A DNA stretch of 62,166 bases. Origin: Alphaproteobacteria bacterium. GTDB lineage: Bacteria > Pseudomonadota > Alphaproteobacteria > M2410. The stretch spans positions 1 to 62,166 of the forward strand of contig SBGZ01000052.1 of assembly GCA_006226415.1 (NCBI GenBank), given 5' to 3'. A program made the position numbers and the translations under genes. Shown here piece after piece: positions 38,702-58,212 of this stretch (its first letter is position 1; every line of letters starts with the position of its first letter). Under the pieces are notes generated by a model. That model searched no databases. It worked only from the letters and a program-made list of their open reading frames with translations, and was not told where the DNA came from.

Positions 38702-40327
38702 TTACCCCTCTTCGGAGCTCTCTAATTCAGGCTCTGTCATTAGCCCACGTAGCAAACTAACACAACAGACGATCAATACGAGTGAAAACGGCAGACCCAC
38801 AGCGATGGCGCCAGCCTGAAGAGAGGAGAGCGCCGTTGCACCACCGCCAACCAGCAGAACTATTGCCACCAGACCCTCCATGGTAGCCCAGAATATCCGC
38901 TGGGGCACCGGTGCGTGGAGCTTACCCCCAGCCGTGATGCTGTCAATAACCAGAGATCCCGAATCGGATGAGGTCACAAAAAAGATTATCAGGAGCACAA
39001 TTGCCACGACCGTCGATATCTGCGCGATTGGCATTTGTTCCAACATCTGAAAGAGCACCAGGGAGACATCATTGATGCCGTTCGGCAGTGTACCGACGCC
39101 GTTTTGAACTTGGTCAATCGCGGTGACACCGAAAGACGAGAACCATATGACGGAGACCACAGTCGGAAGCGCAATAACTGCGAGCAAAAACTGCCTTATG
39201 GTCCGGCCCTTTGATACGCGTGCGATAAACATGCCGACAAAAGGAGACCAGGAAATCCACCATGCCCAGTAGAAAATGGTCCAGCCGTGGAACCAGTCTT
39301 TGTCATCCCGTCCAATCCAGTTACTGAGGCGAGTGACGTCTTCTAGATACCCGAGAAAATTCGTTCCAAAGCTTTTGAGAATCAGCATCGTCGGGCCTGC
39401 CAGTATCACAAAGAGCAGCACTACAATGGCGAGCGCGATATTGATGTTGCTCAGGAGTTTAACGCCGCCATCGAGACCCCTGACCACGGAGAATATCGCA
39501 AGACTTGTAATGCCGACGATCAGAATGACTTGGGTATTGAGACCAGGATCTGTTCCGAAGAGGAAATGGAGACCACTCGCGGCTTGCTTTGCACCGAGTC
39601 CGAGCGATGTGGCTAGACCAAAGAGCGTCGCAACAACGGCCAGCAGATCCACCACATGCCCTGGCCAACCCCAGACGCGTTCACCAAACAAAGGATAAAA
39701 AGTCGACCTGATTGTAAGTGGCAGCCCGCGATTGAAGGTGAAATAGGCTAGTGCCAGCCCAATCACTGCATAAATGGCCCATGGCGTAATGCCCCAGTGA
39801 AAAATTGTGGCGCTGAAGGCGAGCCTTTCCGCCTCAGGCGTAAGAGGTGGCGCATTCAATGGCGTGCCGGACCAGCCCGTGTAGTAAGCCATTGGCTCGG
39901 CCGCGCCGTAAAAGACCATGCCAATCCCCACACCAGCGGAGAACAGCATGGCGATCCACGAGATGGTGCTGAATTCCGGTTTGGCGTCCGGACCACCGAT
40001 CCGGATCTTGCCAAATTTGGAAACTCCAATTCCAACACAAAAGAGAAAGACAATATTTGTGGTGATAACAAAGAGCCAATCAAAGTTTTGAATGGTTCCG
40101 TTTTTCGCAGCCAGAAAAACTTCTCGCGCAACATCGGGAAAAGAAAGTGAGCTGACCACAAAGGCCGCAATTAGAAAAGCCCCTACAAAGAAAACCGGAT
40201 TGTGGAGATCAAGACCCCAGAACTGGATATTGTCCTGCCCGGTTGTGAAATCCGTGTCGTAAGCAAGGTCTTCAGGGGCATGATGCTCAGGCAAGTCAAA
40301 TTCGTCATCTTTACGTTCTTCGCTCAT
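38702..40327 (-). CDS. BCCT-family betaine/choline/carnitine-type transporter
   Basis: 541 residues from the ATG at 40327, which overlaps the stop of the upstream gene as ATGA. Twelve hydrophobic helices, with the family tryptophan-rich signature FYWAWWISWSPFVGMFIARV in TM8 and MAYYTGWSG in the substrate region. Sodium- or proton-coupled uptake of a trimethylated or dimethylsulfonio compound (glycine betaine, choline, carnitine, DMSP). The N-terminal tail is acidic. Coupled to the TPR-sulfotransferase and downstream of the TonB receptor, suggesting one uptake-and-modify unit. Confidence 0.92.
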   Translation of the reverse strand: MSEERKDDEFDLPEHHAPEDLAYDTDFTTGQDNIQFWGLDLHNPVFFVGAFLIAAFVVSSLSFPDVAREVFLAAKNGTIQNFDWLFVITTNIVFLFCVGIGVSKFGKIRIGGPDAKPEFSTISWIAMLFSAGVGIGMVFYGAAEPMAYYTGWSGTPLNAPPLTPEAERLAFSATIFHWGITPWAIYAVIGLALAYFTFNRGLPLTIRSTFYPLFGERVWGWPGHVVDLLAVVATLFGLATSLGLGAKQAASGLHFLFGTDPGLNTQVILIVGITSLAIFSVVRGLDGGVKLLSNINIALAIVVLLFVILAGPTMLILKSFGTNFLGYLEDVTRLSNWIGRDDKDWFHGWTIFYWAWWISWSPFVGMFIARVSKGRTIRQFLLAVIALPTVVSVIWFSSFGVTAIDQVQNGVGTLPNGINDVSLVLFQMLEQMPIAQISTVVAIVLLIIFFVTSSDSGSLVIDSITAGGKLHAPVPQRIFWATMEGLVAIVLLVGGGATALSSLQAGAIAVGLPFSLVLIVCCVSLLRGLMTEPELESSEEG

Positions 40328-42315
40328 TTTCGATACTCCGTAAGGGCTGGCCCCAATGCCTGACGGAGGGGATCCAGATGCTTTTCGAAATTCTTCCACT
40401 GCGCAAGGCCTGCGTCGCTGACAGGCCTGCGGACTTGCTCCGAACTGGCCGTTCGAACACTTCGATTGGTGTTGTAAAACTCTAGGCAGGCACCTTCAAA
40501 AGGAAGCTCGCAGAATTCCAGCATGCGCCTGACCTGTCCTTCAAGATCCGTCACCACATCCTCGTGGAGCACGCGCAGAACCTTGCCCGGCAGCACTTCA
40601 TCAAAGTGCGCCATCAGATCGACGTAGTCCCGGTAGTAGCGGCCGATCTCTTCCAGCCCGTATGTGAACTCCTGGCCTTCCGCAAAGAGCTGCTTAAATC
40701 CAGAAAAACAACAAGCCATGGGTTCGCGGCGGGCATCGATGATTTTAGCATTCGGCAAAATGAGGTGGATAAGCCCGATGTGGCGGAAATTGTTCGGCAT
40801 CTTGTCGGTGAAGAAAGGTGCACCTTCGCGGTGGATGGCTGTATCACGAATGTAGGTATCGCCGAACTCTTTGAGTTGGTCTTCTGTCAGTTCATGCAGA
40901 TTATCCGGGTAAAGGTGTTTACCGGAGGCCCGACCACGGCCTCGCAAGCGGTGTGCCAAAGAAAGAATGTTGGGCAACTCCAACGTCCCGTCGACCTGGC
41001 TGTGAGACGCGAGAATTTGTTCAATAAGCGTGGAACCCGCCCTCGGTAACCCAACGATGAAAACCGGATCCGGCGCCGGGCAGCCTCTTCCAGACTGCAG
41101 TTCAAACAGTTCTGCTGTACAGGCATCTTTCTGACGCTCGAATTCCTCGGTCATTTTGTCAGCGTGATAATTCGATTGCTGACGCTTGAGACTGTTACCT
41201 GCCACATAACAATCGAAGGCCTTGTCGAAGTCCTCTTTGTCTTCGTAAGCCTTGCCAAGGGCAAAATCGATCGCGATTTCATCCTTTTGAGTCACGATCT
41301 GCGCTGATCTGACCCTCTCCATCCGTTCGATCTCGAAGGGCTGAAACTCAAAAGTTTTCAGATTTGCCAGGGCGTGCCAAGCCTCACCGAGTTCCGGCGC
41401 AACCTCACAGGCCGTACGATAGCACCTGATGGCTTCGTCCTGCTCACCGATCGTTTTGAGGGCGTGGCCTTTTGAGACGAGGGTCTGCGGATCATTGGGG
41501 TGCTTATCCAGAATGGCATCGAAGAGCGGAAAAGCGGCTTCGTAGTTGCCCGACTGCATCAGCTCGATTGCATAGATCGACTGAAAAGCCGGTTCATCGG
41601 TATTGCGCTCATAAAGACTCTTTGCCTCCTCAAGCGCTTTCACAAAATTCTGTCTGCGGCGCAGGACCTGAATGTAATCAATACGAAGCTGAATTTTCTC
41701 TGGCGCCAATTCGACAGCGCTTTCAAGCAGAAACTCGGCATCGTCCAACACACCAAGCCGCTTGCCAATTTCAGCCAGAAGTCGCATGCCTTCGGTATCA
41801 TTTGGATGCACTTTCAAAAAAGTGCGACAGATCTCTTCTGCCTTGAGAACCTGGCTTTCATAGATGAGATTTTCAACAGCAAGAAGCTCGTTTGGCAGCG
41901 CTTCGAGCCTTGCGACCTGCGCCTCAGCAAAATGTGCCATGTTGTTGTCATAGGCTTCCCTGCTGAGCATTGCGAGTGCAACCCAGGTCCCCTTAAGAGC
42001 CGGGTTGATCTGACTGGCCGCCCGGTAAGCATGAATTGCCTCACCGGTCTTCCCCTGGTCGCGCGCAAGGTGCCCCTGTTCCTGATGTAGCCGGCCACTA
42101 AAGGGCGCAGCGGCAATCAACTCCGCCAGAACTTGCCCAGCTTCATCATAACGTTTTAGATATCGCAGCGTCACAGCCTGCATGTAACGCAGATCCGGAT
42201 TGGTCGGATCAGCAGCCAAGAGTGTCTGGATGGTTTTCTCAGCACGGCCGAACTCCCGATTCAACAAACACAGACGGACTTTTGCGAGATCCTCATTTGT
42301 GACGGCCGAACTCAT
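40324..42315 (-). CDS. TPR-repeat sulfotransferase
   Basis: 663 residues from the ATG at 42315, six bases after TAGGG; a longer frame reaches 42381. The first 380 or so residues are tetratricopeptide repeats (for example LRYMQAVTLRYLKRYDEAGQ, and KGHALKTIGEQDEAIRCYRT). The rest is a sulfotransferase with the PAPS 5'-phosphosulfate loop GLPRAGSTLIEQIL and the DKMPNNF/ DARREPMACCFSG region near the 3'-phosphate site. It should move a sulfate group from PAPS to an unknown acceptor, perhaps a tyrosine or a sugar. TPR-sulfotransferases often sit next to TonB receptors, as here. Confidence 0.88.
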   Translation of the reverse strand: MSSAVTNEDLAKVRLCLLNREFGRAEKTIQTLLAADPTNPDLRYMQAVTLRYLKRYDEAGQVLAELIAAAPFSGRLHQEQGHLARDQGKTGEAIHAYRAASQINPALKGTWVALAMLSREAYDNNMAHFAEAQVARLEALPNELLAVENLIYESQVLKAEEICRTFLKVHPNDTEGMRLLAEIGKRLGVLDDAEFLLESAVELAPEKIQLRIDYIQVLRRRQNFVKALEEAKSLYERNTDEPAFQSIYAIELMQSGNYEAAFPLFDAILDKHPNDPQTLVSKGHALKTIGEQDEAIRCYRTACEVAPELGEAWHALANLKTFEFQPFEIERMERVRSAQIVTQKDEIAIDFALGKAYEDKEDFDKAFDCYVAGNSLKRQQSNYHADKMTEEFERQKDACTAELFELQSGRGCPAPDPVFIVGLPRAGSTLIEQILASHSQVDGTLELPNILSLAHRLRGRGRASGKHLYPDNLHELTEDQLKEFGDTYIRDTAIHREGAPFFTDKMPNNFRHIGLIHLILPNAKIIDARREPMACCFSGFKQLFAEGQEFTYGLEEIGRYYRDYVDLMAHFDEVLPGKVLRVLHEDVVTDLEGQVRRMLEFCELPFEGACLEFYNTNRSVRTASSEQVRRPVSDAGLAQWKNFEKHLDPLRQALGPALTEYRK

Positions 42316-42338
42316 CATAACCCTACACATCACAAGCA

Positions 42339-42362
42339 GAAGCGCCCCGCAAGGAGCGCTTC
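42339..42362 (-). promoter_or_regulatory. hairpin between TonB receptor and sulfotransferase genes
   Basis: GAAGCGC (42339-42345) and GCGCTTC (42356-42362) pair perfectly; no T-run follows on the minus strand. It lies 40 bases after the receptor stop and may lower transcription of the downstream genes or stabilise the receptor mRNA. Confidence 0.4.
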
Positions 42363-42401
42363 CAACTTTGGTCGATATCAATTTGCGTCCACAGCAAGGT
42401 C

Positions 42402-45011
42402 TTAGTATTCGACTGAGAACCGGGCACCCACTGTCAGCGGCCGGATCACCGTGACCCGTTCGCGGTCAAAGACGAAATTATTGTTAATCTCCGCTCGTTC
42501 GTCCGTCACGTTGTCAATATAGAGTTCCGCATTCCATTTGTCGGTCGTGAGACCAGCGCGGAGCCCGAGTGTCGTCCAACTGTCAATCGGCGCCTTGTTA
42601 ATCTCGATGATATCACTGTATGAGGAACTAGAGTGCACGACCTGGCCTGAGACGTACGCCCCATAGCCGTTCTCGAGCATCCATTCATACCGCAAACGGA
42701 CGTTACCCTGGAATTCCGGTGCGAAGGCGAGCGGTTCACCCTTGATGACGTCGCCAGTTGGCGTGAGCACCTTGGTGATTTCCGTATCCAGAAGCGAAAA
42801 GGCACTGGCGACTGTCAAGCCGGGAACTGTGTCCGGTGCCCAGGTAATTTCTCCTTCCGCGCCACGAATTTCCGCATTCGCGGCATTGTCGGAGAAGAAC
42901 AGATTGACTATCGAAGGATCAAAAATCGTTGTTTGCAGTTTCTCTATTTCGACATAGAAGATATTTCCGTTGAAGCGCAACGTCTTGTCAAAGAGATCAG
43001 TCTTCCAACCGAGCTCATAGTTTTTGATATCATCCGTGTCGAGCACGAAAGGCACAGTATAACCACCTGGTCCCTGTGCGCCGCCTGGGCGGTTCAACAG
43101 ACCTGGACGGAAACCTTCCGAATAAGTCGCATAGAAAAGCAGATCATCGGTCGGCGTCCATACGGCCGTCGCCTTGTAGATGGTGCCTTTAGCTTCTGCT
43201 TTGTCCGGTGCGCTCAAGGCATTGAAAATCTGAGTGACCTGGCCAGGCGACAACAGAGGATCAGCAAGTAGAATGTCGGCCTCCGACATACCTTCGGTAT
43301 AGGTGATATGGCGGGCCGTATTGCATGTGCCATGGAAAGTGTATTCTCCATCGCCGTTATAGAGATCACTGATATCAGTCCCATAGGCATTGGCATCAGA
43401 CGGACCGCTATTACAGAATGATGAGTTGGCGCTGCCATCGAAGTCGACTTCGATGTCGTAGTTGCGCGCGCCCAACGTAATTGAGAATAGCGATGGTACG
43501 ACATCAAATGTCACCTCGCCAAAGTAACCGAGCTGCTTGTCGGTGCGCTTCACATCATTGCGGAAGATAACCCCCGGTGGGAATGGTCCGGAATCAGACA
43601 TATATCCTGTTGTGAAGGGATAGTTGTCTGCAAAGCCCGTCTGTCCCCAAAGGTCCACATATTTGGAACCGGGATAGTCGAAATCATTACGCTCACGCAC
43701 CTCCGAGTCGGCATAAAAGACACCGAGGGTTGCCTTAATGCGGTACTCTTCTGGCGTATTGACCCGGAACTCATGTGTGAGGAATTCACTCTCCGTTTGC
43801 GATTTCACTGAAAGATTAGGTGCCTGGCATGTGCCGGTTGGATCGCCTGCGGGATAGGTCACGTCCCCATCGCAAATATAATAAGGCAGATACTGGCCTA
43901 CATAGAGGTAGTCCGTGTAATCAACCGTCTGATCGGTTTCACGGTCCGTGTAAGCGCCAGTATAAATCATCTCCAATTGACCCATGCGGCCATTGACGGT
44001 CCAGGCGGTGTTCTTGTAGCTGTCCTCCATAGAATCATCGGAGTAGCGTTGAACCTGGAGATCGTCCAGGGTCGGGTCTTCAAAAAAGACACCATCGGAT
44101 TCGATGTCCTGTTCGCTGTGCGCTACAAGTATCGACCAATCTTCATTGACATCCATCAGGCCCGAAAGGCGGAAGCCGGAGTATGTCGTGTCGTTGAAGT
44201 CTTCCTCCACCAAGGCGGAGTTATCTGCCTGCAAGAAGGTGACGCCCGCAAGATTGTCGGTCGATTGGAAGCCCGCGCGATTCGCGGAAACCGGCACGCC
44301 ATTGGCTCGAACAGTTCCTGCAGGTCTGAAACGCGCCGACTGAGAGGCATCCACAGTGCCGTGGACATTGTCAATGTAGCCGCCCTGGTTATCATTGTAG
44401 ACCACGGCGCGGACTGCAAAGTTGTCGCTGACCGGAAGATTGATAACACCTTCAACTTTGTTGCTCATTTCACCGTCTTTGGTAAACGAGGCGCCAAAAT
44501 TGGCCTTTGCCTGAAATTCGCCGATGACCGGCTTATTTGTAATCAGGCGAATGGTACCGGCCTGAGAGCTGGCGCCATAAAGGGTGCCTTGTGGACCCGC
44601 GAGAACCTCAATCCGTTCAAGGTCGGCGGCATAGACATCGAGGTTTCGACCCGGTTGCGAGATCGGTTGTTCATCCAAATAGAGAGCGACGTTTGGCGCA
44701 AGTCCTGCGACGCCAGCAGTTGTGAGGTTCGGCGTTGTGGACGCGAGACCGCGGACATAGATCGTGTTCTGGCCGGGGCCGGAACCACCTGCTGTTACCC
44801 CAGGCATTTGCATTAGGTAGTCCGTGAATACATCGACATTAAGTTCTTCAAGAGCCTGCTCGTCGAACGCGGAAACGGCAATTGGAATGCTTTGTGCGCT
44901 TGCTGAGCGCTTGGTAGATGTAACAACAATCTCATCGATTGCAGCCGTGGCGGGAACCGCCATCGCGGTCAGAATCGCGATTGACGAGACGCCCGTCATA
45001 AATTTGGACAT
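42402..45011 (-). CDS. TonB-dependent outer-membrane receptor
   Basis: 869 residues: signal peptide (SIAILTAMAVPATA-A), a TonB-box-like IDEIVVTSTKR at the mature N-terminus, plug domain (about residues 35-165, with LMQMPGVTAGG, QNTIYVRG and GTLYGASSQAGTIRL), and a 22-strand barrel. It takes up a scarce compound with energy from TonB-ExbBD. First gene of the islet operon; the ligand may be the quaternary or sulfonio compound carried by the BCCT protein, but this is only context. Last residues are RFSVEY. Confidence 0.93.
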   Translation of the reverse strand: MSKFMTGVSSIAILTAMAVPATAAIDEIVVTSTKRSASAQSIPIAVSAFDEQALEELNVDVFTDYLMQMPGVTAGGSGPGQNTIYVRGLASTTPNLTTAGVAGLAPNVALYLDEQPISQPGRNLDVYAADLERIEVLAGPQGTLYGASSQAGTIRLITNKPVIGEFQAKANFGASFTKDGEMSNKVEGVINLPVSDNFAVRAVVYNDNQGGYIDNVHGTVDASQSARFRPAGTVRANGVPVSANRAGFQSTDNLAGVTFLQADNSALVEEDFNDTTYSGFRLSGLMDVNEDWSILVAHSEQDIESDGVFFEDPTLDDLQVQRYSDDSMEDSYKNTAWTVNGRMGQLEMIYTGAYTDRETDQTVDYTDYLYVGQYLPYYICDGDVTYPAGDPTGTCQAPNLSVKSQTESEFLTHEFRVNTPEEYRIKATLGVFYADSEVRERNDFDYPGSKYVDLWGQTGFADNYPFTTGYMSDSGPFPPGVIFRNDVKRTDKQLGYFGEVTFDVVPSLFSITLGARNYDIEVDFDGSANSSFCNSGPSDANAYGTDISDLYNGDGEYTFHGTCNTARHITYTEGMSEADILLADPLLSPGQVTQIFNALSAPDKAEAKGTIYKATAVWTPTDDLLFYATYSEGFRPGLLNRPGGAQGPGGYTVPFVLDTDDIKNYELGWKTDLFDKTLRFNGNIFYVEIEKLQTTIFDPSIVNLFFSDNAANAEIRGAEGEITWAPDTVPGLTVASAFSLLDTEITKVLTPTGDVIKGEPLAFAPEFQGNVRLRYEWMLENGYGAYVSGQVVHSSSSYSDIIEINKAPIDSWTTLGLRAGLTTDKWNAELYIDNVTDERAEINNNFVFDRERVTVIRPLTVGARFSVEY

Positions 45012-45047: not shown

Positions 45048-45311
45048 GGGTCTTGCCAGGCCCCGCCCAGCGTCGCCGCGAACATGTCTAAAACCGCAGG
45101 CGCCCCCGGAAGGCCGCGCTCACCGGGCCCTCTTGCCAAGGGCAGTTGATAGAATATTACTTAGGTAATTGAAAGGGTAATAACGAGAAACGAAGGACTT
45201 CTTGGATATTTTGGTCAATAAATCTCATATTTCGGTAAATTTGCCACTCATTTCATTCGATATTCGAATCACTGATCAAAACTTCTCCCAGTGACCAGAT
45301 ACAGCAGCGCA
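45048..45311. other. non-coding region upstream of the TonB receptor to the islet right end
   Basis: About 260 AT-rich bases with no open frame I would support. It must hold the minus-strand promoter of the receptor operon. Repeated TATTTTGGTCAATAAA / ATATTTCGGTAAAT wording near 45208-45240 could be regulator sites, unproven. Confidence 0.4.
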
Positions 45312-45346
45312 GTCTGGTCCTAGGTTCGAGTCCTACCGGGCCCACC
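45312..45346 (+). repeat. tRNA 3'-end copy (attachment-site remnant)
   Basis: 35 bases copying the anticodon-stem to acceptor end of the tRNA at 37893-37969 with one mismatch. No upstream tRNA half is present, so this is not a tRNA gene but the right end of the integrated islet. It is followed by 235 bases without a gene that I can support. Confidence 0.85.
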
Positions 45347-45563: not shown

Positions 45564-45583
45564 ACCCTTTCCTTTGAAAGGGT
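45564..45583 (+). promoter_or_regulatory. hairpin enclosing the ribosome site of the ligase fusion gene
   Basis: ACCCTTTC-CTTT-GAAAGGGT is a perfect eight-base stem; the right arm holds the AAAGGG ribosome site and runs into the GTG at 45582-45584. Folding would close the start. If the true start is the GTG at 45585 or ATG at 45606, the hairpin still covers the only good ribosome site. Confidence 0.55.
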
Positions 45584-48059
45584 GGTGTTGAGTCTGGTGC
45601 CAAATATGAAATTGCCAAATGGAGATCGTTCCGGCGGACGCATTTCGCTGCTGGATCCAGCCATTGTGTGCTGCGTCATCGGGCTCTGTCTGGGAGGCCT
45701 GCGGCTCTTCGCGCAACCGGACCTCTTGTCCGGCTTCAGATCTGAAACGCTGCACAGCTACACCCTCAACATGTCCTTCGACGAAGATACCGATGATGTA
45801 TCCGTCCGCACCTATTTGCCCTTAAGCAATGAACATCAGGAAGTGATCCGCGAGCATGTCATCTCCGGAAAATTCTCCTTCGATGACACTGAAAACGGCG
45901 ACGGTCGCCTGGGGGTATGGAGCGGCCGAGGTGAATCGAATCTGAGCTACCACGCGCTGATCGCCTCCAAACGCATCACCTATGAACTCGACCCCAACCT
46001 TTGGATATCAAGACAACTCCCCGAGGAGGTCACCGCCTATTTGGACGGAACCGATGCAATCCCGGTCTTCCACAAGGAAATTGACCGTCTCTGGACAGAG
46101 ATCGGCGCGGGACAAGACCGCCTGCTCGTCCCGACCCTGCAAGCGATCTATCAATACGTCTACCAAGAGATTGAGGGCGCGCCCTTTAAAGGGTTTACAG
46201 ATGCCCTCACCGCGCTGCGCCTCAAACAGGCAAGCTGCAACGGCAAAAGCCGCCTCTTTGTGGCATTGGCCCGGCATAACGGCATTCCGGCGCGTCTGGT
46301 CGGCGGCGTCATATTAAACAACGGCCGCAAGAAAACCTCACACCAGTGGGTTGAGGTTTGGGTGCTTGATCACTGGGTCCCGATCGATGCCACAAACGGA
46401 CATTTTGCGACCCTTCCGGCAAACTATCTCCAGCTTTACATTGGTGACCTTCCTCTCTTCACCCACACAAAAAATATCAACTTCGAATATCAATTTGATA
46501 TCGAAAAGGAGCACCTTTCCTCGGCGCTCTTCAGATTTGGGGATGAAGAACAAGAAGCCTCCCCTTCCAAGATGAATGCTGCGGAGTTGCTGGCATTCAC
46601 AGGACTTGATGAAAGAACCATCGGGGTTTTCCTGCTCTTCCCCTTGGGCGCGCTCATTGTCGCCTTTCTGCGAAATGTGATCGGCCTGCACACGTTTGGC
46701 ACCTTCATGCCCATGCTGGTCGCCGCGGCCTGCGTCCACACGGGGCTCATTGAAGGCCTGACGGCCTTTACCGTCGTCGTTCTCTTTGCTTTTGCCGGCC
46801 ACGCTGTCCTTGATCGCTATCGGCTGCTCAAGGTCCCGAGGCTGGCTGCGATTATCACACTCTGTACAGGCCTGTTTATTGTGACCCTCTGGGCACTCGG
46901 CGGGAGAGTTTCCTGGAACTTTGGCATGCTGGCGCTCTTTCCGGTCATCATCATTTCCTTCCTCGCCGATCGCATTCACCAGATGGCAGAAGATCGCAAC
47001 TGGTCCGAACTGGTGATCTCTTCATTTGGCGTGCTCATCTCCACCACAATCTGTTTTTTGGCGTTCTCTTCCGTGGTCCTGCAAAGCATCTTCTCTTTGA
47101 TGCCGGAAACTCTGTTTCTGGTCTTGGCGGTTCTGATTTACTTCGGGCGCTGGCCAGGTATGCGCTTGCTGGAATATATCCGTTTCAGAAACCTACTCGC
47201 CGAAGGTGAGGCTCTTGGCATCAACAGTCGCAATCGGGACTATGTCAATCTCGTCAATCCCCGCATCTTTCTGGAGCTGGCCGCAGACAAAATTCGCACC
47301 AAAGAGGCCCTGGCCAAAGACCACATTCCGATCTGCGACAACCTCGCCATCTGCACAAGCCATCACGATTTGGATGATTTTCTGGCGCTGGTTCAGGAAC
47401 TCGACCAATTTGTGCTCAAACCCAATCGCGGGTCACAAGGCAACGGTATCCTGGTCATTCGCGGCAAAGAGAATGGTAACTTTATCGCGGCAAGTGGAGA
47501 GCTTCTGTCACCAAAAGACATAGAGCGACACACTCTCCATATTCTCAGTGGCACATACTCACAAGACAGCCATCCAGATGCCGCCTATGTGGAACCCCTG
47601 CTCGAACAACACGAGGCCCTGAACAGACTGGCTGACTTCGGCCTTTCAGACATTCGCGTCATCCTGTTCAGAGGAAAACCGATCAGCGCCATGCTGCGTC
47701 TGCCGACCAGTCAGTCCAGTGGCAAGGCTAACCTGCACCAGGGCGCCATTGGGATTGCCATCGACTTAAAGAACGGCTTCACCCGGCGCGCCTCTCTCAA
47801 AGGCAAAGAAATCAAGAAACATCCAGACACTGAGGTTTCGCTGGAAGATTTCGAGATACCTTATTGGGACCAAATCATTCAAATTGCCATCGACTGCGGC
47901 AAGGCCATTCCCCTTGGTTATCTGGGAGTGGACATCTGCATTGATGACCGCGAGGGACCCATTGTCCTGGAGGTCAACGGTCGACCAGGCATCGAAATTC
48001 AAAACGTACAAAAAAAGGGCTTACGCCGTGACCTGGAATTCATTCTTCAAGCCCCTTGA
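45582..48059 (+). CDS. transglutaminase-like/7TM/ATP-grasp ligase fusion protein
   Basis: 825 residues. One N-terminal helix (about 23-44); periplasmic domain (45-340) with a transglutaminase-like core: Cys219 in ASCNGKSRLF, His254 in SHQWVEVW, Asp269 in PIDATNG, spaced as in active enzymes; seven membrane helices (about 345-545); cytosolic ATP-grasp ligase (about 555-825) with FVLKPNRGSQGNGILVI (ATP loop), DIRVILFRGKP and GPIVLEVNGRPGIEI (metal ligands). The pieces match the families named 'inactive transglutaminase fused to 7TM' and 'alpha-L-glutamate ligase homologue', normally two adjacent genes; here they are one chain. The TPR gene overlaps its end by 32 bases. Start codon uncertain (GTG 45582, GTG 45585 or ATG 45606). 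Confidence 0.85.
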   Translation: MVLSLVPNMKLPNGDRSGGRISLLDPAIVCCVIGLCLGGLRLFAQPDLLSGFRSETLHSYTLNMSFDEDTDDVSVRTYLPLSNEHQEVIREHVISGKFSFDDTENGDGRLGVWSGRGESNLSYHALIASKRITYELDPNLWISRQLPEEVTAYLDGTDAIPVFHKEIDRLWTEIGAGQDRLLVPTLQAIYQYVYQEIEGAPFKGFTDALTALRLKQASCNGKSRLFVALARHNGIPARLVGGVILNNGRKKTSHQWVEVWVLDHWVPIDATNGHFATLPANYLQLYIGDLPLFTHTKNINFEYQFDIEKEHLSSALFRFGDEEQEASPSKMNAAELLAFTGLDERTIGVFLLFPLGALIVAFLRNVIGLHTFGTFMPMLVAAACVHTGLIEGLTAFTVVVLFAFAGHAVLDRYRLLKVPRLAAIITLCTGLFIVTLWALGGRVSWNFGMLALFPVIIISFLADRIHQMAEDRNWSELVISSFGVLISTTICFLAFSSVVLQSIFSLMPETLFLVLAVLIYFGRWPGMRLLEYIRFRNLLAEGEALGINSRNRDYVNLVNPRIFLELAADKIRTKEALAKDHIPICDNLAICTSHHDLDDFLALVQELDQFVLKPNRGSQGNGILVIRGKENGNFIAASGELLSPKDIERHTLHILSGTYSQDSHPDAAYVEPLLEQHEALNRLADFGLSDIRVILFRGKPISAMLRLPTSQSSGKANLHQGAIGIAIDLKNGFTRRASLKGKEIKKHPDTEVSLEDFEIPYWDQIIQIAIDCGKAIPLGYLGVDICIDDREGPIVLEVNGRPGIEIQNVQKKGLRRDLEFILQAP

Positions 48060-49938
48060 TTCCAGGGTTGCCCTGTCGGCACCGGGATTGGCCGCCTTGG
48101 CAATTTGCCTGACGGTTATTGTTGTGCTGGTGGATCAGCGCCTGGCTAAATCGATTTCCGAAACGCAGGTCGTAGCGGTCAGCGCCGAAGAAGACGATAC
48201 AGCAGAAGACATTTCCGCTGTTACGCTTTCCGAGGACTTGGCGGTCCAGATCAAGGATCTCATCAAAGCAACAAGAAACACCCCCTTCACTGTCGACACC
48301 CTCACCGCCGCCGCTTTTTATGAGGCTGTCGACCCCGCCCTGCAATCAGCCGTCATCGCTTATGCCGGCGAGGAACTCTCAAGGCACCAACGCTACAGCG
48401 AGGCCGTCGACATCTTCGCAGCCATAACGGCCCAGGAAAGGGCCGCGCTCGGCAGTGCATTTGCATATGGCTATGCCCTGCGCGCCTTGGACAGGGACGA
48501 AGAAGCTCTCGAGAGCTACCGCCAACATGTGGCAGCTTTCCCCAATCATCAAGCTGGCAACATTAACCTGGGTCTTCTTCTGGCCAAAACCGGCAATCAT
48601 CTGGAAGCTTTAACGGTGCTTCACCACGCCGCCGAAATTTCAAGCGGCGAGCGACGCGGCAAGGCGCTCGCCTCCCAGGGGTCTTCTTTGGTCGCGCTTG
48701 GCCGCTTCGAAGAAGCTGTGTCCGTTTTCAGGAAATCCATCGAATATCGACCCAACAACAGCGCCACATGGCGCAAGCTCGCCATGGCGATGAACCAGAC
48801 CGGCATCCATTCCCAGGCTGAAATCGAATCAGCCTTCCTCAAGGCCATGGCTCTGGCCCCACACAATGCGATCCCAAGTGCCGAGCTTGCTCATTTCTAT
48901 TTCGGCAAGGGCCGCTTCAGAGACGCGATTCCAATTTACCGACAGGCCCACAATCAGGCGAAAGATCGGTTGTCCCTGGGACTTCAGCGGGCACTCAATC
49001 TCTATATTTCAGATCGCCCGACGAGTGCGAAACGTGTGCTGCGGAAAATCCAAAGCACTAAGCGTTCAGCAAGCCAAAGCCGGCAATTTGATCTGATGAC
49101 CGCGCTCCTCGATGGGTCATCCCGAAAGATCACCAAGGCCGCCGAAAGACTTACCGATAGCCGTACGCGCGGAGAACCTTTGACCGAGGCATTGCTTTTA
49201 TTAACCCAGATAGAAACCAGCCCCGACAGCATCACCGAAGATCTCTTCTCTCCCTTTGCGGACGACACGACATTTTATCAGCCGCTTCGATATGCCTTTG
49301 CGATGAAGCTCCTGTCGGAGGATCGATTTGATGAAGCCGCGGATCAGTTTGCGGTCTTGGCCGCCCTGAGCAGCGAGAGCCCCACTTTCGCCTATGCCAA
49401 CAGCCTGGCGCTTCGCGGTTCTGGAAAGGCTAAACCAGCTCTGAAGGAAATTCAGCGCGCCTATCAGCTGCAACCGATAAGTGACCGCATTTCTTACGAA
49501 CTGGTAGACCAGCAATTGGCCTTGAACGACTTCAATGGAGCTCTCAGCGTTCTGGACGATGTCATCGCCCGGAAAAAACGCCCCCTTCAGGCATATATTC
49601 AAAGCGGCGATCTCTACCTGAAACAGGGCAAGCCGAAAAAGGCAATTGCGATGTATTCGCAAGTTATCGCTCTCGGCAACACCGACATGGCCATTGCCTT
49701 GAAGCTTGCTGAGCTCCAGGCCTCTGTCGGTAACCCCGAAGACGCGCTGGCCACCCTCAATGAAGCCATTGATCGGGAAAGCGGATCCATCGAAGCACGC
49801 ATGTTGCGTGCTCAGATCCTAGTTGAGGCAAATGGCTCCGATTTAGCCATACAAGAGTTGCGAAAAATCCTCCTTCTCGATGAAAATTACGAACCCGCTC
49901 AGAATCTGTTAACCAAATTGCAATCAAATGCTATGTAA
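48028..49938 (+). CDS. membrane-anchored TPR-repeat protein
   Basis: 636 residues from the GTG at 48028, with AAAGGG about nine bases before it; starting further up would only re-read the previous gene. A single N-terminal helix (PGLAALAICLTVIVVLV) anchors it, with the rest predicted periplasmic. At least ten tetratricopeptide or TPR-like repeats run from about residue 95 to the end (for example ALRALDRDEEALESYRQHVA, and ALVALGRFEEAVSVFRKSIE-type units). TPR arrays hold complexes together, as AlgK, PgaA and BcsC do in polymer export. Placed between the ligase fusion and an outer-membrane barrel and translationally coupled to the first. Confidence 0.85.
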   Translation: MTWNSFFKPLDSRVALSAPGLAALAICLTVIVVLVDQRLAKSISETQVVAVSAEEDDTAEDISAVTLSEDLAVQIKDLIKATRNTPFTVDTLTAAAFYEAVDPALQSAVIAYAGEELSRHQRYSEAVDIFAAITAQERAALGSAFAYGYALRALDRDEEALESYRQHVAAFPNHQAGNINLGLLLAKTGNHLEALTVLHHAAEISSGERRGKALASQGSSLVALGRFEEAVSVFRKSIEYRPNNSATWRKLAMAMNQTGIHSQAEIESAFLKAMALAPHNAIPSAELAHFYFGKGRFRDAIPIYRQAHNQAKDRLSLGLQRALNLYISDRPTSAKRVLRKIQSTKRSASQSRQFDLMTALLDGSSRKITKAAERLTDSRTRGEPLTEALLLLTQIETSPDSITEDLFSPFADDTTFYQPLRYAFAMKLLSEDRFDEAADQFAVLAALSSESPTFAYANSLALRGSGKAKPALKEIQRAYQLQPISDRISYELVDQQLALNDFNGALSVLDDVIARKKRPLQAYIQSGDLYLKQGKPKKAIAMYSQVIALGNTDMAIALKLAELQASVGNPEDALATLNEAIDRESGSIEARMLRAQILVEANGSDLAIQELRKILLLDENYEPAQNLLTKLQSNAM

Positions 49939-49976
49939 CGCTGGGGCGCATGGCACAATTGAAACGGAAAAAAACA

Positions 49977-51095
49977 ATGAAAAAGTCAGCCCTCCTCGCA
50001 GCCGCGACCACTATTCTCGTCCCATTCCAGCTTGCTCATGCAGATGTCTCCGGCTCTGTCTCGCTGGGTTACGATGACAATCCTTTCAAATTGAACGGGG
50101 CCATGAACCCCGATAGCGCCATGTTCGCGGAGCTCGATCTTGGCCTTGAGCACGAGACCGAAAGCGGTCTGAAATTTGAGTTTGACGCAAATCTCGCCAA
50201 GTTTGACAGCGATGCAGACGATGCCGACAACCACACCCTCAACGCGGGCATCTCATATGAATTCGAGAGCAGCTTCTTCGGCAAAGACACGGAATATTCC
50301 TTTGGCGCCGATTATCGCCGCCGTGACAAGACCTATGTCAGCCGCTCCACCGGCCTCGTTGGCGAGTCAGGTGGCACGCCCACCCCGGACCGGTTTGATT
50401 CAGATACCTTCAGCCTGTTTGCCCGCGCCAACATTGAGCTGAATGACAAAACAGAGTTCCGCTTGACCGTTGACGGTCGGGATCGGACCTATGAGGATTA
50501 CGACAGCCTGGGCCTGACCAATCTGGATCACAAACAATGGTCTGTTGAAGGGCGCCTGACATTCGAACCTGCTGACAATCAGGAAATTAGTGGCGAGGTC
50601 GGCTACACCAAACGTGATTATGACGACCGCGAAGGCCGCGATCTCCTGGGCGTCTTGGTCGCAGGCACCGATCTGGAATATGAGACCCTTGCGTTTGATG
50701 TACGCTGGACCATAGACCTGTCAGACAAACATGACATCCGCTTCTCCTACGGTCACAAAAATCGCGAAGACAATGTGTCCGGTTACTACGACACCACGAC
50801 CAACGACGCAGGCGTTCGCTTTCGCTATCGCGCCTCTGACCGGCGCCGGTTTGATGCCGATCTGTCCTACAGCGACTACAGCTACGACAATTCCTCACCG
50901 GACCCGTTGCTTGAAAACGAAGAGCCCATCAATTCCAAGGAAGGTTTCCGCCTGAAACTGGGTTATGAGCAAGCCATCGGCGACCGCAATGTCTGGGTCT
51001 TTGCCAACGGCAGCTACGAAGACTATGACAGCGTGAACGCTGTTTACGTCTACGACAAAATGGTCTTCCAGATTGGCGTCAAATCTGAGTTTTAA
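49977..51095 (+). CDS. outer-membrane beta-barrel protein of unknown family
   Basis: 372 residues from the ATG at 49977 (MKKSALLAAATTILVPFQ, cleavage at AHA-D); an ATG at 49950 would add nine basic residues. The mature chain is a run of amphipathic strands, about 16-18 (VSGSVSLGYDDNPF, KFEFDANLAKF, YSFGADYRRRD, and so on), ending in Phe as outer-membrane barrels do. Loops are rich in Asp, Glu and Tyr, so the channel or surface is acidic. Third gene of the operon, 38 bases after the TPR gene. It may be the outer pore of the system; the TPR-plus-barrel pair recalls Slam or exopolysaccharide exporters. Not assigned to a named family. Confidence 0.8.
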   Translation: MKKSALLAAATTILVPFQLAHADVSGSVSLGYDDNPFKLNGAMNPDSAMFAELDLGLEHETESGLKFEFDANLAKFDSDADDADNHTLNAGISYEFESSFFGKDTEYSFGADYRRRDKTYVSRSTGLVGESGGTPTPDRFDSDTFSLFARANIELNDKTEFRLTVDGRDRTYEDYDSLGLTNLDHKQWSVEGRLTFEPADNQEISGEVGYTKRDYDDREGRDLLGVLVAGTDLEYETLAFDVRWTIDLSDKHDIRFSYGHKNREDNVSGYYDTTTNDAGVRFRYRASDRRRFDADLSYSDYSYDNSSPDPLLENEEPINSKEGFRLKLGYEQAIGDRNVWVFANGSYEDYDSVNAVYVYDKMVFQIGVKSEF

Positions 51096-51422
51096 AGCTT
51101 CAATAGGGGCCCGGATCGCTTCCGGGCCCGCTTCTGACCAAGATGTGTCAGATTTTCGAATTCAGACTGGACCGGTTCAGCGCGCCTGATCCGGTCCATT
51201 TCTTTTGGGGGCGAGGCCAAACCAGCCCAATCCGCCTGATAGGAGGCACACCCTTTCAAGGGCTTATTCCCCCCTGCCACCAAGTTACACCCAGCGCTTT
51301 CTGAATAAATTGTTGACCAAGTGGTCAGGATTAGTAATGATTTCACCAGTGAAGTCTAAAACCTGGCCTTTTCAATACCTTAATTGGTAGTTTGGCGCCG
51401 GATTTCCTTGGAAGGAGGACGG
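51096..51422. promoter_or_regulatory. intergenic region: GC-rich hairpin after the barrel gene, then promoter region of pre operon
   Basis: GGGCCCGGA-TCGCT-TCCGGGCCC (51107-51129) is a perfect nine-base stem just after the barrel stop, a probable transcription end though without a T-run. About 185 bases later lies the RutR-type palindrome (separate entry) with a promoter TTGACC-16-TAATGA around 51313-51340. No gene is seen in between. Confidence 0.6.
51313..51328 (+). promoter_or_regulatory. RutR-type operator upstream of preTA
   Basis: TTGACCAAGTGGTCAG: TGACCA and TGGTCA are perfect six-base mirrors separated by two bases, matching the TTGACCA-N2-TGGTCAA consensus I know for RutR, the TetR-family regulator of pyrimidine degradation. 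It overlaps the -35 hexamer of the likely promoter, 95 bases before preT. No rutR gene is in the window. Confidence 0.7.
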
Positions 51423-52751
51423 ATGGACAAAGCTACGCGCCCCGGGCCGGATGCCCGCCAACTGGCTGAAAATCTTTCAGATATCCATCCGCCGTTGGAT
51501 AAGTTCCAGGCAAAAACCGCCGCCGCTGAGTGCCTTTATTGCTACGAGGCCCCTTGTACGCGGGCCTGCCCGACCTCCATCGACATTCCAACCTTTATTC
51601 ACAAGATCTCGACAGACAACCCCTTGGGCGCCGCGAAGACAATTCTCGCGGAGAATATTCTGGGCGGCACTTGTGCCCGCGCCTGCCCGACAGAAGTGCT
51701 GTGCGAAGAGGCCTGCGTTCGCAACACGTCCGATGGCGCCCCGGTAGAAATCGGGCGCCTGCAACGCTTTGCCGTCGATCACCTTATTGATCGGCCGACG
51801 GAAGAACACCCTTTTGATCGCGCGCCAGACACGGGACGAAGGGTTGCTGTCGTCGGTGCCGGACCCGCAGGACTGGCCTGCGCCCACCGCCTCGCCATGC
51901 TGGGTCACCAGGTCGATATCTTCGAAGCGATGCCCAAGCCGGGTGGGCTAAACGAATACGGCCTCGCCGCTTACAAGATGACCCAGGATTTTGCCCAACG
52001 AGAAGTCAAATTCGTCCAAGGCATCGGAAATATTGAGATCCACCATGGGGTGCGTCTGGGAGAAGATTTACCTCTCTCCGCCCTGCAGACCAGCCACGAT
52101 GCGGTCTTCATTGGCGTGGGTTTGGGGAGCTCCAATGATCTCGGTTTTACGGATCTGCCGCCCGAGGGAATTGAAGATGCTCTGACCTTCATTGAACGGC
52201 TGCGCCAGTCGCCGGAAGAAGCCGCCGCCCGTCTACCCGAGCGGGTAACGGTCATCGGCGGCGGCAATACCGCCATTGATGCCGCGGTACAAGCGCGCAA
52301 GCTCGGCGCCCGCGAAGTAACGCTGTGTTATCGCCGGGGCCGTGATGAAATGAGCGCCACCGGCTGGGAACAGGACCTCGCCCTCAAAAACGATGTCAAA
52401 ATGATCCTCTGGGCGATGCCGGTTAAGGTCTTGGGCAAACACCAGGTCAAAGGCTTGGCCTTAGAGCACAGCGTCATGTCAGAGGATGGCCGCCTGATTT
52501 CCACCGGCGAAAAATTTGAAATCGAAACCGATCTGATCCTGACCGCCATTGGGCAAAAGCTACATCGCGCTTCCCTCGGCGATTTGGAACTGGCAGGCGG
52601 CAAGATCACAATTGACGCCCACTATCAGACCTCTCTCCCGGGCGTCTTTGCGGGAGGCGATTGCACCGCCACAGGCGAAGATCTCACCGTGCAGGCCGTA
52701 GAAGACGGCAAACGCGCCGCCCACGCCATCCACGACTACTTAAGCCAATAA
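51423..52751 (+). CDS. preT: dihydropyrimidine dehydrogenase subunit PreT
   Basis: NADH-oxidising, flavin and Fe-S subunit of bacterial dihydropyrimidine dehydrogenase (first step of reductive uracil/thymine breakdown). 442 residues from the ATG at 51423, with GGAGG five bases before. Two Cys clusters for 4Fe-4S: CLYCYEAPCTRACPTSI and CARACPTEVLCEEACVRN; FAD site GAGPAGLACAHRLAMLG; NADH site GGGNTAIDAAVQARKLGA followed by CYRRGRDEM. Same fold as the GltD small subunit. First gene of a five-gene operon. Confidence 0.95.
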   Translation: MDKATRPGPDARQLAENLSDIHPPLDKFQAKTAAAECLYCYEAPCTRACPTSIDIPTFIHKISTDNPLGAAKTILAENILGGTCARACPTEVLCEEACVRNTSDGAPVEIGRLQRFAVDHLIDRPTEEHPFDRAPDTGRRVAVVGAGPAGLACAHRLAMLGHQVDIFEAMPKPGGLNEYGLAAYKMTQDFAQREVKFVQGIGNIEIHHGVRLGEDLPLSALQTSHDAVFIGVGLGSSNDLGFTDLPPEGIEDALTFIERLRQSPEEAAARLPERVTVIGGGNTAIDAAVQARKLGAREVTLCYRRGRDEMSATGWEQDLALKNDVKMILWAMPVKVLGKHQVKGLALEHSVMSEDGRLISTGEKFEIETDLILTAIGQKLHRASLGDLELAGGKITIDAHYQTSLPGVFAGGDCTATGEDLTVQAVEDGKRAAHAIHDYLSQ

Positions 52752-52769
52752 CCAAGGAAAGGGACCGCC

Positions 52770-54044
52770 ATGGCTGATCTTGGCTGCACCATCGCCGGTA
52801 TTGAGAGCATCAATCCATTCTGGCTCGCCTCGGCCCCGCCCACCGACAAGAAATACAACGTTGAACGGGCCTTTCACGCGGGTTGGGGCGGCGTTGTCTG
52901 GAAGACCCTCGGTATCGACCCGCCCGTCATTAACGTGACAAGCCGATACGGCGCTCATCATGACTCGACACGCGGTCTGATCGGCATCAACAACATCGAA
53001 CTTATTTCAGACCGCCCCCTCAAAACCAACCTCGACGAAATCCGTGCCACCCGAAAGGAATGGCCGGACCGCATTATTATCGGCTCCATGATGGCGCCAG
53101 TGGAAAAAGAGGCCTGGCAAACCCTCGCGGTGCAGATCGCCGAGGCCGGTGTCCATGGCATCGAGCTTAATCTTGGATGCCCTCACGGCATGTGCGAGCG
53201 CGGCATGGGGTCCGCCATCGGTCAGGTGCCGGAAATGGTTCAGCAGACAACCGCCTGGGTGAAAGAGGTCGTCGACATCCCTGTCTTCACCAAGCTGACC
53301 CCCAACATCACCAATATTCTTTGGTCCGCGGAAGCCGCGGCCCAGGGCAATGCCGATGCGGTGGCGCTCATCAACACCGTCAACTCAATCATCTCCGTCA
53401 ATCTTGACACCATGGCACCGGAACCCACTGTCGACGGGCGCGGCACCCATGGCGGCTATTGCGGCGCGGCGGTCAAGCCGATCGCGCTCAATATGATCGC
53501 AGAAATCGCCCGCACACCGGAAACCCAGCGCCTGGATATTTCCGGAATTGGCGGCATCACAAATTGGCGCGATGCGGCCGAGTTCATATCTCTTGGCGCC
53601 AATGCGGTCCAGGTCTGCACGGCGGCCATGCTCTACGGCTTCCGGATTGTCGACGACATGATCGACGGTCTTTCGGGCTGGATGGATACCCAGGGCTATA
53701 TAAACGTGGCGGACTTTACCGGCGCCGCCATCCGCAATGTCGTCGACTGGAACGACCTCAACATGAATTACGATCTGAAGGCGCGCATCAACGAGGACAA
53801 GTGCATTGAATGCGGGCGCTGCTACATCGCCTGCGAAGACACCTCACACCAGGCAATTACCATAACCCAAATGGCAGAGGGTCATCGCCGCTTTGATGTT
53901 GTGGATGAAGAGTGCGTTGGCTGCAATCTCTGCTATCATGTGTGTCCGGTACCGGGCTGTATCGAAATGGAAGCTGTTGATACAGACCGCCCCTACATGA
54001 CCTGGCCAGAGCACCCCTTGAATCCCATGAAGGGTGCTGAATAA
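52770..54044 (+). CDS. preA: dihydropyrimidine dehydrogenase subunit PreA
   Basis: FMN barrel plus ferredoxin-like domain that reduces uracil or thymine to the 5,6-dihydro form. 424 residues; barrel with LNLGCPHGMCERGMGSAIG (active-site Cys region) and GIGGITNWRDAAEFI (phosphate-binding), then two 4Fe-4S motifs CIECGRCYIACEDTSHQ and CVGCNLCYHVCPVPGCIEM. Pairs with PreT encoded 18 bases upstream. The order PreT-PreA is as in E. coli. Confidence 0.95.
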   Translation: MADLGCTIAGIESINPFWLASAPPTDKKYNVERAFHAGWGGVVWKTLGIDPPVINVTSRYGAHHDSTRGLIGINNIELISDRPLKTNLDEIRATRKEWPDRIIIGSMMAPVEKEAWQTLAVQIAEAGVHGIELNLGCPHGMCERGMGSAIGQVPEMVQQTTAWVKEVVDIPVFTKLTPNITNILWSAEAAAQGNADAVALINTVNSIISVNLDTMAPEPTVDGRGTHGGYCGAAVKPIALNMIAEIARTPETQRLDISGIGGITNWRDAAEFISLGANAVQVCTAAMLYGFRIVDDMIDGLSGWMDTQGYINVADFTGAAIRNVVDWNDLNMNYDLKARINEDKCIECGRCYIACEDTSHQAITITQMAEGHRRFDVVDEECVGCNLCYHVCPVPGCIEMEAVDTDRPYMTWPEHPLNPMKGAE

Positions 54045-54072
54045 AGGTATTGATAAGCGAGAGGACGGCCTT

Positions 54073-55335
54073 ATGACCGAAACATCAGGAACCAATCTTG
54101 CAATTGACGGCAACCGTCTCTGGCAAAGCCTCATGGAGATGGCAAAGATCGGTGCAACGGAAAAAGGCGGCTGTTGCCGACTGGCCCTGACCGATCTGGA
54201 CCGCGAGGGCCGCGATCTCTTTCGCCAATGGTGCGAGGACGCAGGCTGCACCATTCGCATCGACAAGATGGGCAACATCTTTGCCCGCCGCGCAGGTCGC
54301 AACAACGACCTGGCCCCCGTTTTGACGGGGTCACACCTCGACACCCAACCCACAGGCGGGCGGTTCGATGGGGTCTTTGGTGTATTGGCAGGACTGGAGG
54401 TCGTTCGTACACTGAACGACCTTAACGTTGAAACAGAACATCCTGTTGAAGTTGCTGTTTGGACCAACGAGGAAGGCTCCCGGTTTGCACCGGCGATGGT
54501 CTCCTCTGGTGTCTTTGCAGGTGTCTTCGACCTCGCCTACGGTCTTAGCCGCAGTGATGAGGACGGCAAAACCATGGGTGAAGAACTTGAACGCATTGGA
54601 TATGCAGGCCCCGAGGAAGTCGGCAAGACCCCGGTTCATGCCTATTTTGAAGCCCATATCGAACAGGGACCCATTCTCGAAGCGGAAGAAAAGACCATCG
54701 GTGTTGTCACCGATGCGCAAGGACAGCGCTGGTATGAGCTGGTCTTCACCGGCGTAGAAAGCCATGCCGGTCCAACCCCGATGAACAGGCGCAAGGACGC
54801 CCTGCTCGGCACCGCGCGTGTCATTCAACTGGTCAATGCCATTGGCCTGAAGCATGCCCCGCTCGCCTGCGCAACGGTTGGCATGGTCAATGTCCATCCC
54901 AATTCCAGAAACGTCATACCAGGCAAGGTCTTTTCCACCATTGACTTCCGTCACCCCGACGACAAGGTGCTTGAGACCATGGACAAAGAGATGCGCGAGG
55001 GGGTCAAAGCCATTGCCGAGGAAATCGGCCTTGAAATGGCGCTGGAGCAAATCTTCTACTATGCGCCGGTGAAGTTTGAAGAGAGCTGCGTCTCTGCAGT
55101 TCGCCAAGGCGTCGAAGCTTGTGGGTATTCTGCCCGGGATATGGTTTCCGGGGCCGGACACGATGCCTGTTATTTGGCCGAAGTTGCGCCAACTTCAATG
55201 ATCTTCATTCCCTGCATCGACGGAATTTCTCACAATGAAGTCGAGGATGTCGAACCGGAATGGGTACATGCGGGCGCCAATGTGCTTTTGCACGCCATCC
55301 TCGATAAAGCGGGTAAGGTAACCGAAGGGATCTAA
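54073..55335 (+). CDS. beta-ureidopropionase-type Zn amidohydrolase (M20 family)
   Basis: Metal-dependent N-carbamoyl amide hydrolase that frees beta-alanine (or 3-aminoisobutyrate), CO2 and ammonia. 420 residues from the ATG at 54073; an upstream in-frame ATG at 54034 overlaps preA. Metal ligands in GSHLDTQPTGGRFDGVFG, NEEGSRFAPAM and HIEQGP; dimerisation domain about 205-325 with GVESHAGPTPMNRRKDAL. Allantoate amidohydrolase and L-carbamoylase are in the same family, but the dihydropyrimidinase and pre genes around it favour ureidopropionase. Next gene starts one base after its stop. Confidence 0.9.
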   Translation: MTETSGTNLAIDGNRLWQSLMEMAKIGATEKGGCCRLALTDLDREGRDLFRQWCEDAGCTIRIDKMGNIFARRAGRNNDLAPVLTGSHLDTQPTGGRFDGVFGVLAGLEVVRTLNDLNVETEHPVEVAVWTNEEGSRFAPAMVSSGVFAGVFDLAYGLSRSDEDGKTMGEELERIGYAGPEEVGKTPVHAYFEAHIEQGPILEAEEKTIGVVTDAQGQRWYELVFTGVESHAGPTPMNRRKDALLGTARVIQLVNAIGLKHAPLACATVGMVNVHPNSRNVIPGKVFSTIDFRHPDDKVLETMDKEMREGVKAIAEEIGLEMALEQIFYYAPVKFEESCVSAVRQGVEACGYSARDMVSGAGHDACYLAEVAPTSMIFIPCIDGISHNEVEDVEPEWVHAGANVLLHAILDKAGKVTEGI

Positions 55336-55336
55336 C

Positions 55337-58212
<2,876 letters not shown>

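Follow-up and report, generated by a model that had tools for sequence, protein, structure and literature searches.

A fused transglutaminase, seven-helix and ATP-grasp gene lies in a sister layout of the RloABC system

What does an operon do if it encodes a periplasmic transglutaminase-like domain, a set of membrane helices and an ATP-grasp ligase in a single protein, followed by a tetratricopeptide repeat (TPR) protein and an outer-membrane barrel? This question is raised by three genes in a contig from an alphaproteobacterium (SBGZ01000052.1 of assembly GCA_006226415.1). We will call the whole contig, which is 62,166 nucleotides long, the window, and the genes, which are all on the forward strand, genes 1, 2 and 3. 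We found that their layout is a sister to that of RloABC in Pseudomonas aeruginosa: the transglutaminase (TG) domain looks intact and a TPR protein and barrel are present, instead of an inactive TG domain and a retropepsin. We tentatively propose that the operon is an Rlo-type amidoligase-membrane system with a second layout ("type II"), which would make an amino-acid chain and would be extended across the outer membrane.

RloABC comprises a secreted retropepsin (RloA), an inactive TG domain joined to seven transmembrane (TM) helices (TG-7TM; RloB), and an ATP-grasp enzyme (RloC) (PMC12239564). RloB and RloC work together with RloA in the tolerance of hypo-osmotic conditions (PMC12239564). RloA, once secreted, cuts stretches of at least eight glutamates, and the triple rloA protease mutant is rescued if rloB or rloC is lost as well (PMC12239564). 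This rescue is as expected if RloB and RloC make or export the substrate of RloA. In the simplest reading, RloC would make, and RloB would export or present, a poly-acidic chain that is trimmed outside. An initial annotation of the window, made from the DNA sequence alone, had noted that TG-7TM and ligase genes are usually separate and lie beside a retropepsin gene, which is the published arrangement of RloABC (PMC12239564). Besides the published Rlo system, the domains and the core pair of TG-7TM and ATP-grasp are known. The literature that we searched, which did not cover the 2009 amidoligase survey by Iyer et al., describes neither the TPR/barrel layout nor an active TG domain among these proteins, and does not mention the exclusion rule that we report below.

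In gene 1, Pfam finds Transglut_core (E = 2.4e-19), 7TM_transglut and ATPgrasp_ST, in that order (see the table for the other E-values). The AlphaFold2 model (mean predicted local distance difference test, pLDDT, of 84) begins with one TM helix, which is followed by a TG-fold domain, then by seven more TM helices, and finally by the ATP-grasp domain. The initial annotation had described the same chain with seven helices; its domains were right, but the model predicts eight helices, with the additional one before the TG domain, and the protein probably starts at ATG 45606 rather than at GTG 45582, as judged from the alignment with a congener. The predicted N-terminus is inside the cell, so the TG domain should be periplasmic and the ligase cytosolic.

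Both enzymes encoded by gene 1 look competent. The TG domain scores 70 bits against PF01841 (transglutaminase-like cysteine enzymes), with a cutoff of 23, and its match to PF14400, the inactive type, is under the cutoff. A Cys-His-Asp triad is present in its fold context: in the model, Cys219 opens a helix, and His254 and Asp269 are on the strands after it. In the PDB, Foldseek matches the domain to the putative cysteine protease 3ISR, with E = 1e-13 and a TM-score of 0.73. Going by the alignment and the model, we consider the TG domain to be catalytically intact. The ATP-grasp domain retains the RimK-type catalytic residues K613, D690, R692, R706, N717, H719, D784, E797 and N799, and these catalytic and metal-binding residues, which are common to RimK, are invariant across all of the layouts described below. 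Its fold is closest to RimK, "poly-alpha-L-glutamate peptides synthetase" (5ZCT, 4IWX and 7QYS; E about 2e-8, Foldseek against the PDB). Gene 1 scores 63.5 bits against the RimK family model TIGR00768, versus a cutoff of 143.4, and has no match to Rimk_N, the pre-ATP-grasp domain of RimK. TIGR02291 (E = 1.3e-77) and the model for RloB (E = 6e-32) also match gene 1 under their cutoffs. Direct sequence searches of the lone domains against PDB chains gave no match; matches came only with the profile and by fold.

How is an intact TG domain related to the absence of a retropepsin? We aligned 62 TG-7TM proteins, of which 23 have the TG Cys and His and 39 do not. All 23 proteins of the TPR/barrel layout keep both residues, and no retropepsin neighbors any of these 23 loci. 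Among the 39 loci whose proteins lack Cys and His, the TPR/barrel pair is absent from every one, and 31 adjoin an RloA-like retropepsin (30 within 300 bases and one at 309); all 31 of the retropepsin-neighboring TG-7TM proteins lack both residues. We considered locus L131 as an exception with both a TPR gene and a retropepsin, but rejected it: that TPR gene lacks a TM helix, has only a generic match, and is not an orthologue. The two layouts are mutually exclusive, and to our knowledge this is new.

The exclusion extends to whole genomes. A secreted retropepsin of the RloA type was seen in none of the 23 genomes with the TPR/barrel layout. Retropepsin-family genes occur in only five of these genomes, each beside RimK or in one chain with it, as in the cytosolic Rim system, and wherever the N-terminus is clear they lack a signal peptide (in genome G614 the true N-terminus could not be judged). 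The window's own genome has no secreted RloA, either in the operon or elsewhere, but only a RimB-RimK fusion; because the assembly is 84% complete, this absence is weak on its own, and the pattern across 23 genomes carries the argument. (The fusion is encoded at 34058-35470 on the reverse strand, ten kb from the operon, and joins a RimB-type retropepsin and RimK in one chain of 470 amino acids; it is a true, cytosolic Rim fusion.)

To see how far the gene set extends, we searched whole genomes with gene 1 (399 Pseudomonadota; 195 Myxococcota, the phylum of Anaeromyxobacter; 385 of the window's class; and 78 of the order that contains family f87) and then scanned the neighbors of the loci found. 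The set of TG-7TM, ATP-grasp, TPR and barrel is found in 23 genomes: two from the window's genus, five from family f87 (in another class of Pseudomonadota), and 16 from Myxococcota. The initial annotation had staked its operon on the genes being kept together in relatives, and they are, in 22 other genomes from two phyla. The TPR gene is present at 22 of the 23 loci (L111 is cut by a contig end), and the barrel was found at 17 (L058, L111, L112, L117 and L123 are cut off). Among the 23, only the window's genus has TG-7TM and ATP-grasp in one chain; in the other genomes they are two genes that touch. Gene order and overlaps are alike in the three distant lineages, whose flanking genes differ. 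In several Myxococcota, one or two additional genes, some of them TPR/YfiO-like, lie between the TPR and barrel genes.

The initial annotation's views of gene 2 as a membrane-anchored TPR protein and of gene 3 as an outer-membrane barrel were both borne out. TPR orthologues are all about 635 amino acids long, and those from different phyla can be aligned over their full length, N-terminal TM helix included (E = 4e-65). Gene 3 matches the Pfam family OMP_b-brl (E = 1.1e-9), and barrels from different lineages match each other by profile (E = 2e-11). Some of the barrels weakly match models for the exopolysaccharide outer-membrane proteins EpsL (E = 4e-6) and PgaA (E = 2e-4), below the cutoffs (19.5 bits for PgaA and 18.1 bits for EpsL, versus 366.65 and 275), which hints at exporter-type barrels. 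A sequence search of the PDB gave no relative of the gene 3 barrel.

How does the operon compare to known systems? As in RloABC (NF052267 and TIGR02291; PF14400, PF14402 and PF14397), a homologous 7TM unit follows a periplasmic TG-fold domain, and a homologous ATP-grasp enzyme is adjacent and co-oriented. In contrast to RloABC, the TG Cys and His are intact rather than lost, the ligase is fused to the 7TM unit in cis (in the window's genus), there is no RloA retropepsin, and there are additional conserved genes for a TPR protein and an outer-membrane barrel. Because the inactive TG domain and the secreted retropepsin are both lacking, the operon is not an RloABC member in the strict sense, but a sister layout. 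RimK makes poly-alpha-L-glutamate, and RimB-RimK hybrid enzymes have already been published (PMC11957791). The ligase of gene 1 shares the ATP-grasp fold and catalytic residues with RimK, but RimK is soluble, with its own pre-ATP-grasp domain and other flanking partners. Exopolysaccharide exporters such as PgaA, BcsC, AlgK/AlgE, PelB and EpsL combine periplasmic TPRs with a barrel of 16-18 strands, beside a synthase. Genes 2 and 3 resemble these, except that they are encoded with an amidoligase and not with a glycosyltransferase or glycan synthase, the TPR protein is separate and anchored in the inner membrane, and the matches to the exporter models are far below the family cutoffs. In the poly-gamma-glutamate capsule systems PgsBCA and CapBCADE, the synthesis of an amino-acid polymer is coupled to membrane export and to a surface processing enzyme. 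Here the likeness is in the idea only and we claim no homology (the ligases are of the Mur type there and ATP-grasp here).

What we observe are the parts and how they are linked; from these, our proposal infers the substrate, the direction of transport, the TG reaction, and the contact between the TPR protein and the barrel. The cytosolic ATP-grasp domain would use ATP to join amino acids into an oligo- or polypeptide; by analogy with RimK, these would most likely be glutamate or a similar acidic residue. The 7TM unit, which is fused to the ligase here, would carry the chain outward as it grows. In the periplasm, the TG domain would then cut the chain or transfer it to an acceptor, which is the step that RloA appears to perform in type I; we infer this because the retropepsin is missing and an intact TG domain is joined to a transporter-like unit. 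The anchored TPR protein would bridge the periplasm to the 16-strand barrel, which would pass or hold the product at the cell surface, as the TPR/barrel pairs do in exopolysaccharide export. The addition of these two proteins suggests that the chain goes to or through the outer membrane. Direct coupling of synthesis to membrane passage is supported by the fusion of 7TM and ligase, which is found here and, independently and without a TG domain, in the archaeon Halobacterium sp. DL1. The initial annotation had also suggested an amide product that is passed outward, which would fit this evidence; its domains, topology and operon hold, but it missed the intact TG triad, in a family known as inactive, and the exclusivity of retropepsin and TPR/barrel. 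A larger claim is possible, but we hold it with more doubt: the operon might be an undescribed Gram-negative trans-envelope secretion system, in which a poly(amino acid), probably acidic, would be made by an ATP-grasp enzyme, passed through a 7TM unit, processed by a TG domain and delivered to the surface by a TPR/barrel pair. It would be the amino-acid counterpart of synthase-dependent exopolysaccharide export, and Rlo would be a shortened, retropepsin-equipped sister.

Several observations weigh against our proposal. First, we know of no RloC whose product has been demonstrated by experiment. Second, one complete locus (L109) has no barrel that we could find. Third, the third residue of the triad varies among the 23 proteins: 11 have Asp, whereas the other 12 of the 23 have Cys (11) or Gly (one). 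Fourth, when the TG columns are excluded from the tree, the layouts separate at a single deep split, and the retropepsin layout (layout I) is a single clade (SH-like approximate likelihood ratio test, SH-aLRT, 96). Fisher tests of the exclusion gave 1e-14 and 3e-10, which overstate the independent evidence because the layouts reflect this one split and not many independent swaps; the rule is conserved, not repeatedly re-invented. Fifth, a periplasmic protease is not obligatory, because three Myxococcota loci (L125, L126 and L127; layout III) have neither an active TG domain nor a retropepsin. They encode a TG-7TM protein without Cys and His, an ATP-grasp enzyme, and a second exported TG-fold protein that is also catalytically dead, and their genomes contain no retropepsin. 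(We rejected the idea that a separate second TG replaces the protease in layout III, as the extra TG genes lack the catalytic Cys.) Finally, Foldseek assigns the gene 3 barrel to a generic porin fold, with uptake channels such as OprD/Occ and CymA.

If the product is an acidic peptide, which the ligase and the 7TM unit would place in the periplasm, it might stay in the envelope. The TG domain would couple it to a lipoprotein, to peptidoglycan or to the barrel, with the TPR protein and barrel as an attachment scaffold, and the system would be a Gram-negative counterpart of osmoregulated periplasmic polymers. This would fit the phenotypes of rlo mutants (hypo-osmotic tolerance, cell shape and beta-lactams), which concern the envelope rather than secretion (PMC12239564), and the hypervesiculation of Shewanella when an inactive TG-7TM gene is disrupted (PMC12096838); an intact TG domain could also perform transamidation. 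However, the rlo phenotypes come from layout I, which lacks the TPR/barrel pair, and a dedicated, co-conserved barrel of 16 strands suggests passage through the outer membrane. We consider an envelope polymer to be unlikely.

Somewhat less likely is that the operon modifies proteins or lipids: the ATP-grasp enzyme would add residues to an acceptor presented at the membrane, the 7TM unit would flip it, the TG domain would remove or exchange the tag, and the TPR protein and barrel would be targets or chaperones. There is a precedent in RimK, which tags RpsF, and RimB, which removes the tag (PMC11957791), and the ATP-grasp family is broad. But beyond the TPR protein and barrel, the operons encode no conserved acceptor with a fitting C-terminus, and the barrels in the window's lineage have ordinary barrel ends.

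We also considered uptake and breakdown, with the barrel as a porin for acidic peptides, hydrolysis by the TG domain, and the 7TM unit and ATP-grasp enzyme handling the products. This seems improbable: the uptake porins that Foldseek returned are generic matches for barrels of 14-18 strands, the ATP-grasp enzyme is a ligase with intact catalytic residues and is not catabolic, and Rlo genetics places RloB and RloC upstream of the protease (PMC12239564). That the genes are mere neighbors without a functional link would suit their patchy distribution (5 of 78 genomes from the order of f87 and 2 of 385 Alphaproteobacteria sampled), but three distant lineages share the gene order and overlaps although their flanks differ, and the TPR proteins and barrels are homologous across phyla; this contradicts the idea, and we dismiss it.

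Positions of the operon's genes and domains in the window
Feature	Position	Strand	Basis or detail
Gene 1: TM helix, periplasmic TG domain, 7TM and ATP-grasp fusion	45582..48059	+	825 amino acids (probably 817 from ATG 45606)
First TM helix, residues 26-46, N-terminus inside	45657..45719	+	predicted
Periplasmic transglutaminase/papain-like domain, residues 54-310	45741..46511	+	Pfam, AlphaFold2 model, fold match 3ISR
Cys219 codon, catalytic nucleophile position, helix start	46236..46238	+	alignment, model
His254 codon, catalytic position	46341..46343	+	alignment, model
Asp269 codon, third triad position (Cys in the Anaeromyxobacter group)	46386..46388	+	alignment
Seven-TM region (PF14402, 7TM_transglut)	46611..47201	+	Pfam E = 1.2e-40, model
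Cytosolic ATP-grasp ligase domain (PF14397)	47214..48044	+	Pfam E = 9e-68, Foldseek, residue comparison
Gene 2: inner-membrane-anchored periplasmic TPR protein, 636 amino acids	48028..49938	+	TPR repeats, one N-terminal TM helix
Gene 3: outer-membrane barrel, signal peptide, 372 amino acids, 16 strands, C-terminal Phe	49977..51095	+	Pfam, AlphaFold2

The gene positions given by the initial annotation were exact, as were the 32-base overlap of genes 1 and 2 (48028-48059) and the 38-base gap before gene 3 (49939-49976). Between two congeners, the proteins are 86%, 73% and 77% identical (genes 1, 2 and 3), and the ratio of nonsynonymous to synonymous substitution rates (dN/dS) is about 0.04, about 0.13 and 0.06-0.08; these ratios are rough, as dS is near saturation. 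With such identities and with dN/dS well below 1, chance reading frames are ruled out. The genes that flank the trio differ between the two congeners. Scans of the operon for promoters and terminators gave nothing usable. We rejected a role as a defense system, as PADLOC gave only a generic TPR match.

Related arrangements turned up elsewhere. In family f87, a conserved small membrane protein (about 185 amino acids, with a weak match to PepSY_TM) is encoded directly upstream of the TG-7TM gene at four loci (L054, L055, L057 and L058); in Shewanella, disrupting a PepSY-domain gene or, separately, an inactive-TG gene gave hypervesiculation (PMC12096838). The Halobacterium sp. DL1 fusion of 7TM and ATP-grasp (584 amino acids; plasmid CP007061.1, L156:4824-6578) lies between transposase genes and is absent from the record's gene table. 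An apparently independent fusion of TG-7TM and ATP-grasp in family f48 (genome G903) was rejected, as a TAA stop separates the genes. In the alphaproteobacterial family f13 (L059 and L060), a putative outer-membrane protein of about 314 amino acids (C-terminus SVGY[AV]F) is followed by a 7TM unit without a TG domain and then by ATP-grasp. This may be a layout that is reduced further and has a barrel of its own, although the outer-membrane protein does not resemble gene 3 significantly (E about 0.1).

Near the operon, the 41 bases at 45305-45345, just upstream (ggttcgagtcctaccgggcccacc), look like the T-arm and acceptor of a tRNA (its 3' half) and are possibly a tRNA remnant or an old integration site; ARAGORN and Rfam scans for tRNAs and RNA families gave no match there. 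Also upstream, a sulfotransferase fused to a TPR array (40324-42381, reverse strand) adjoins a TonB-dependent receptor (42402-45011). On the 3' side, 51384-58212 (forward strand) resembles an operon for reductive pyrimidine catabolism, with PreT/PreA-like subunits, an M20 amidohydrolase, a purine/pyrimidine permease and an amidohydrolase.

In P. aeruginosa, the Rlo genes have effects on antibiotic tolerance, on biofilm and on cell shape, and a natural sister layout narrows the possible roles of RloB and RloC. The layout ties the ligase to the 7TM unit, and it suggests that a periplasmic step, by a TG domain or a protease, processes the ligase's product. The two layouts predict that a system will have an active TG domain or a retropepsin, but not both. 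The added outer-membrane route suggests that the product may be able to leave the cell, and the fused gene 1 protein is a single chain that would allow joint assays of synthesis and transport.

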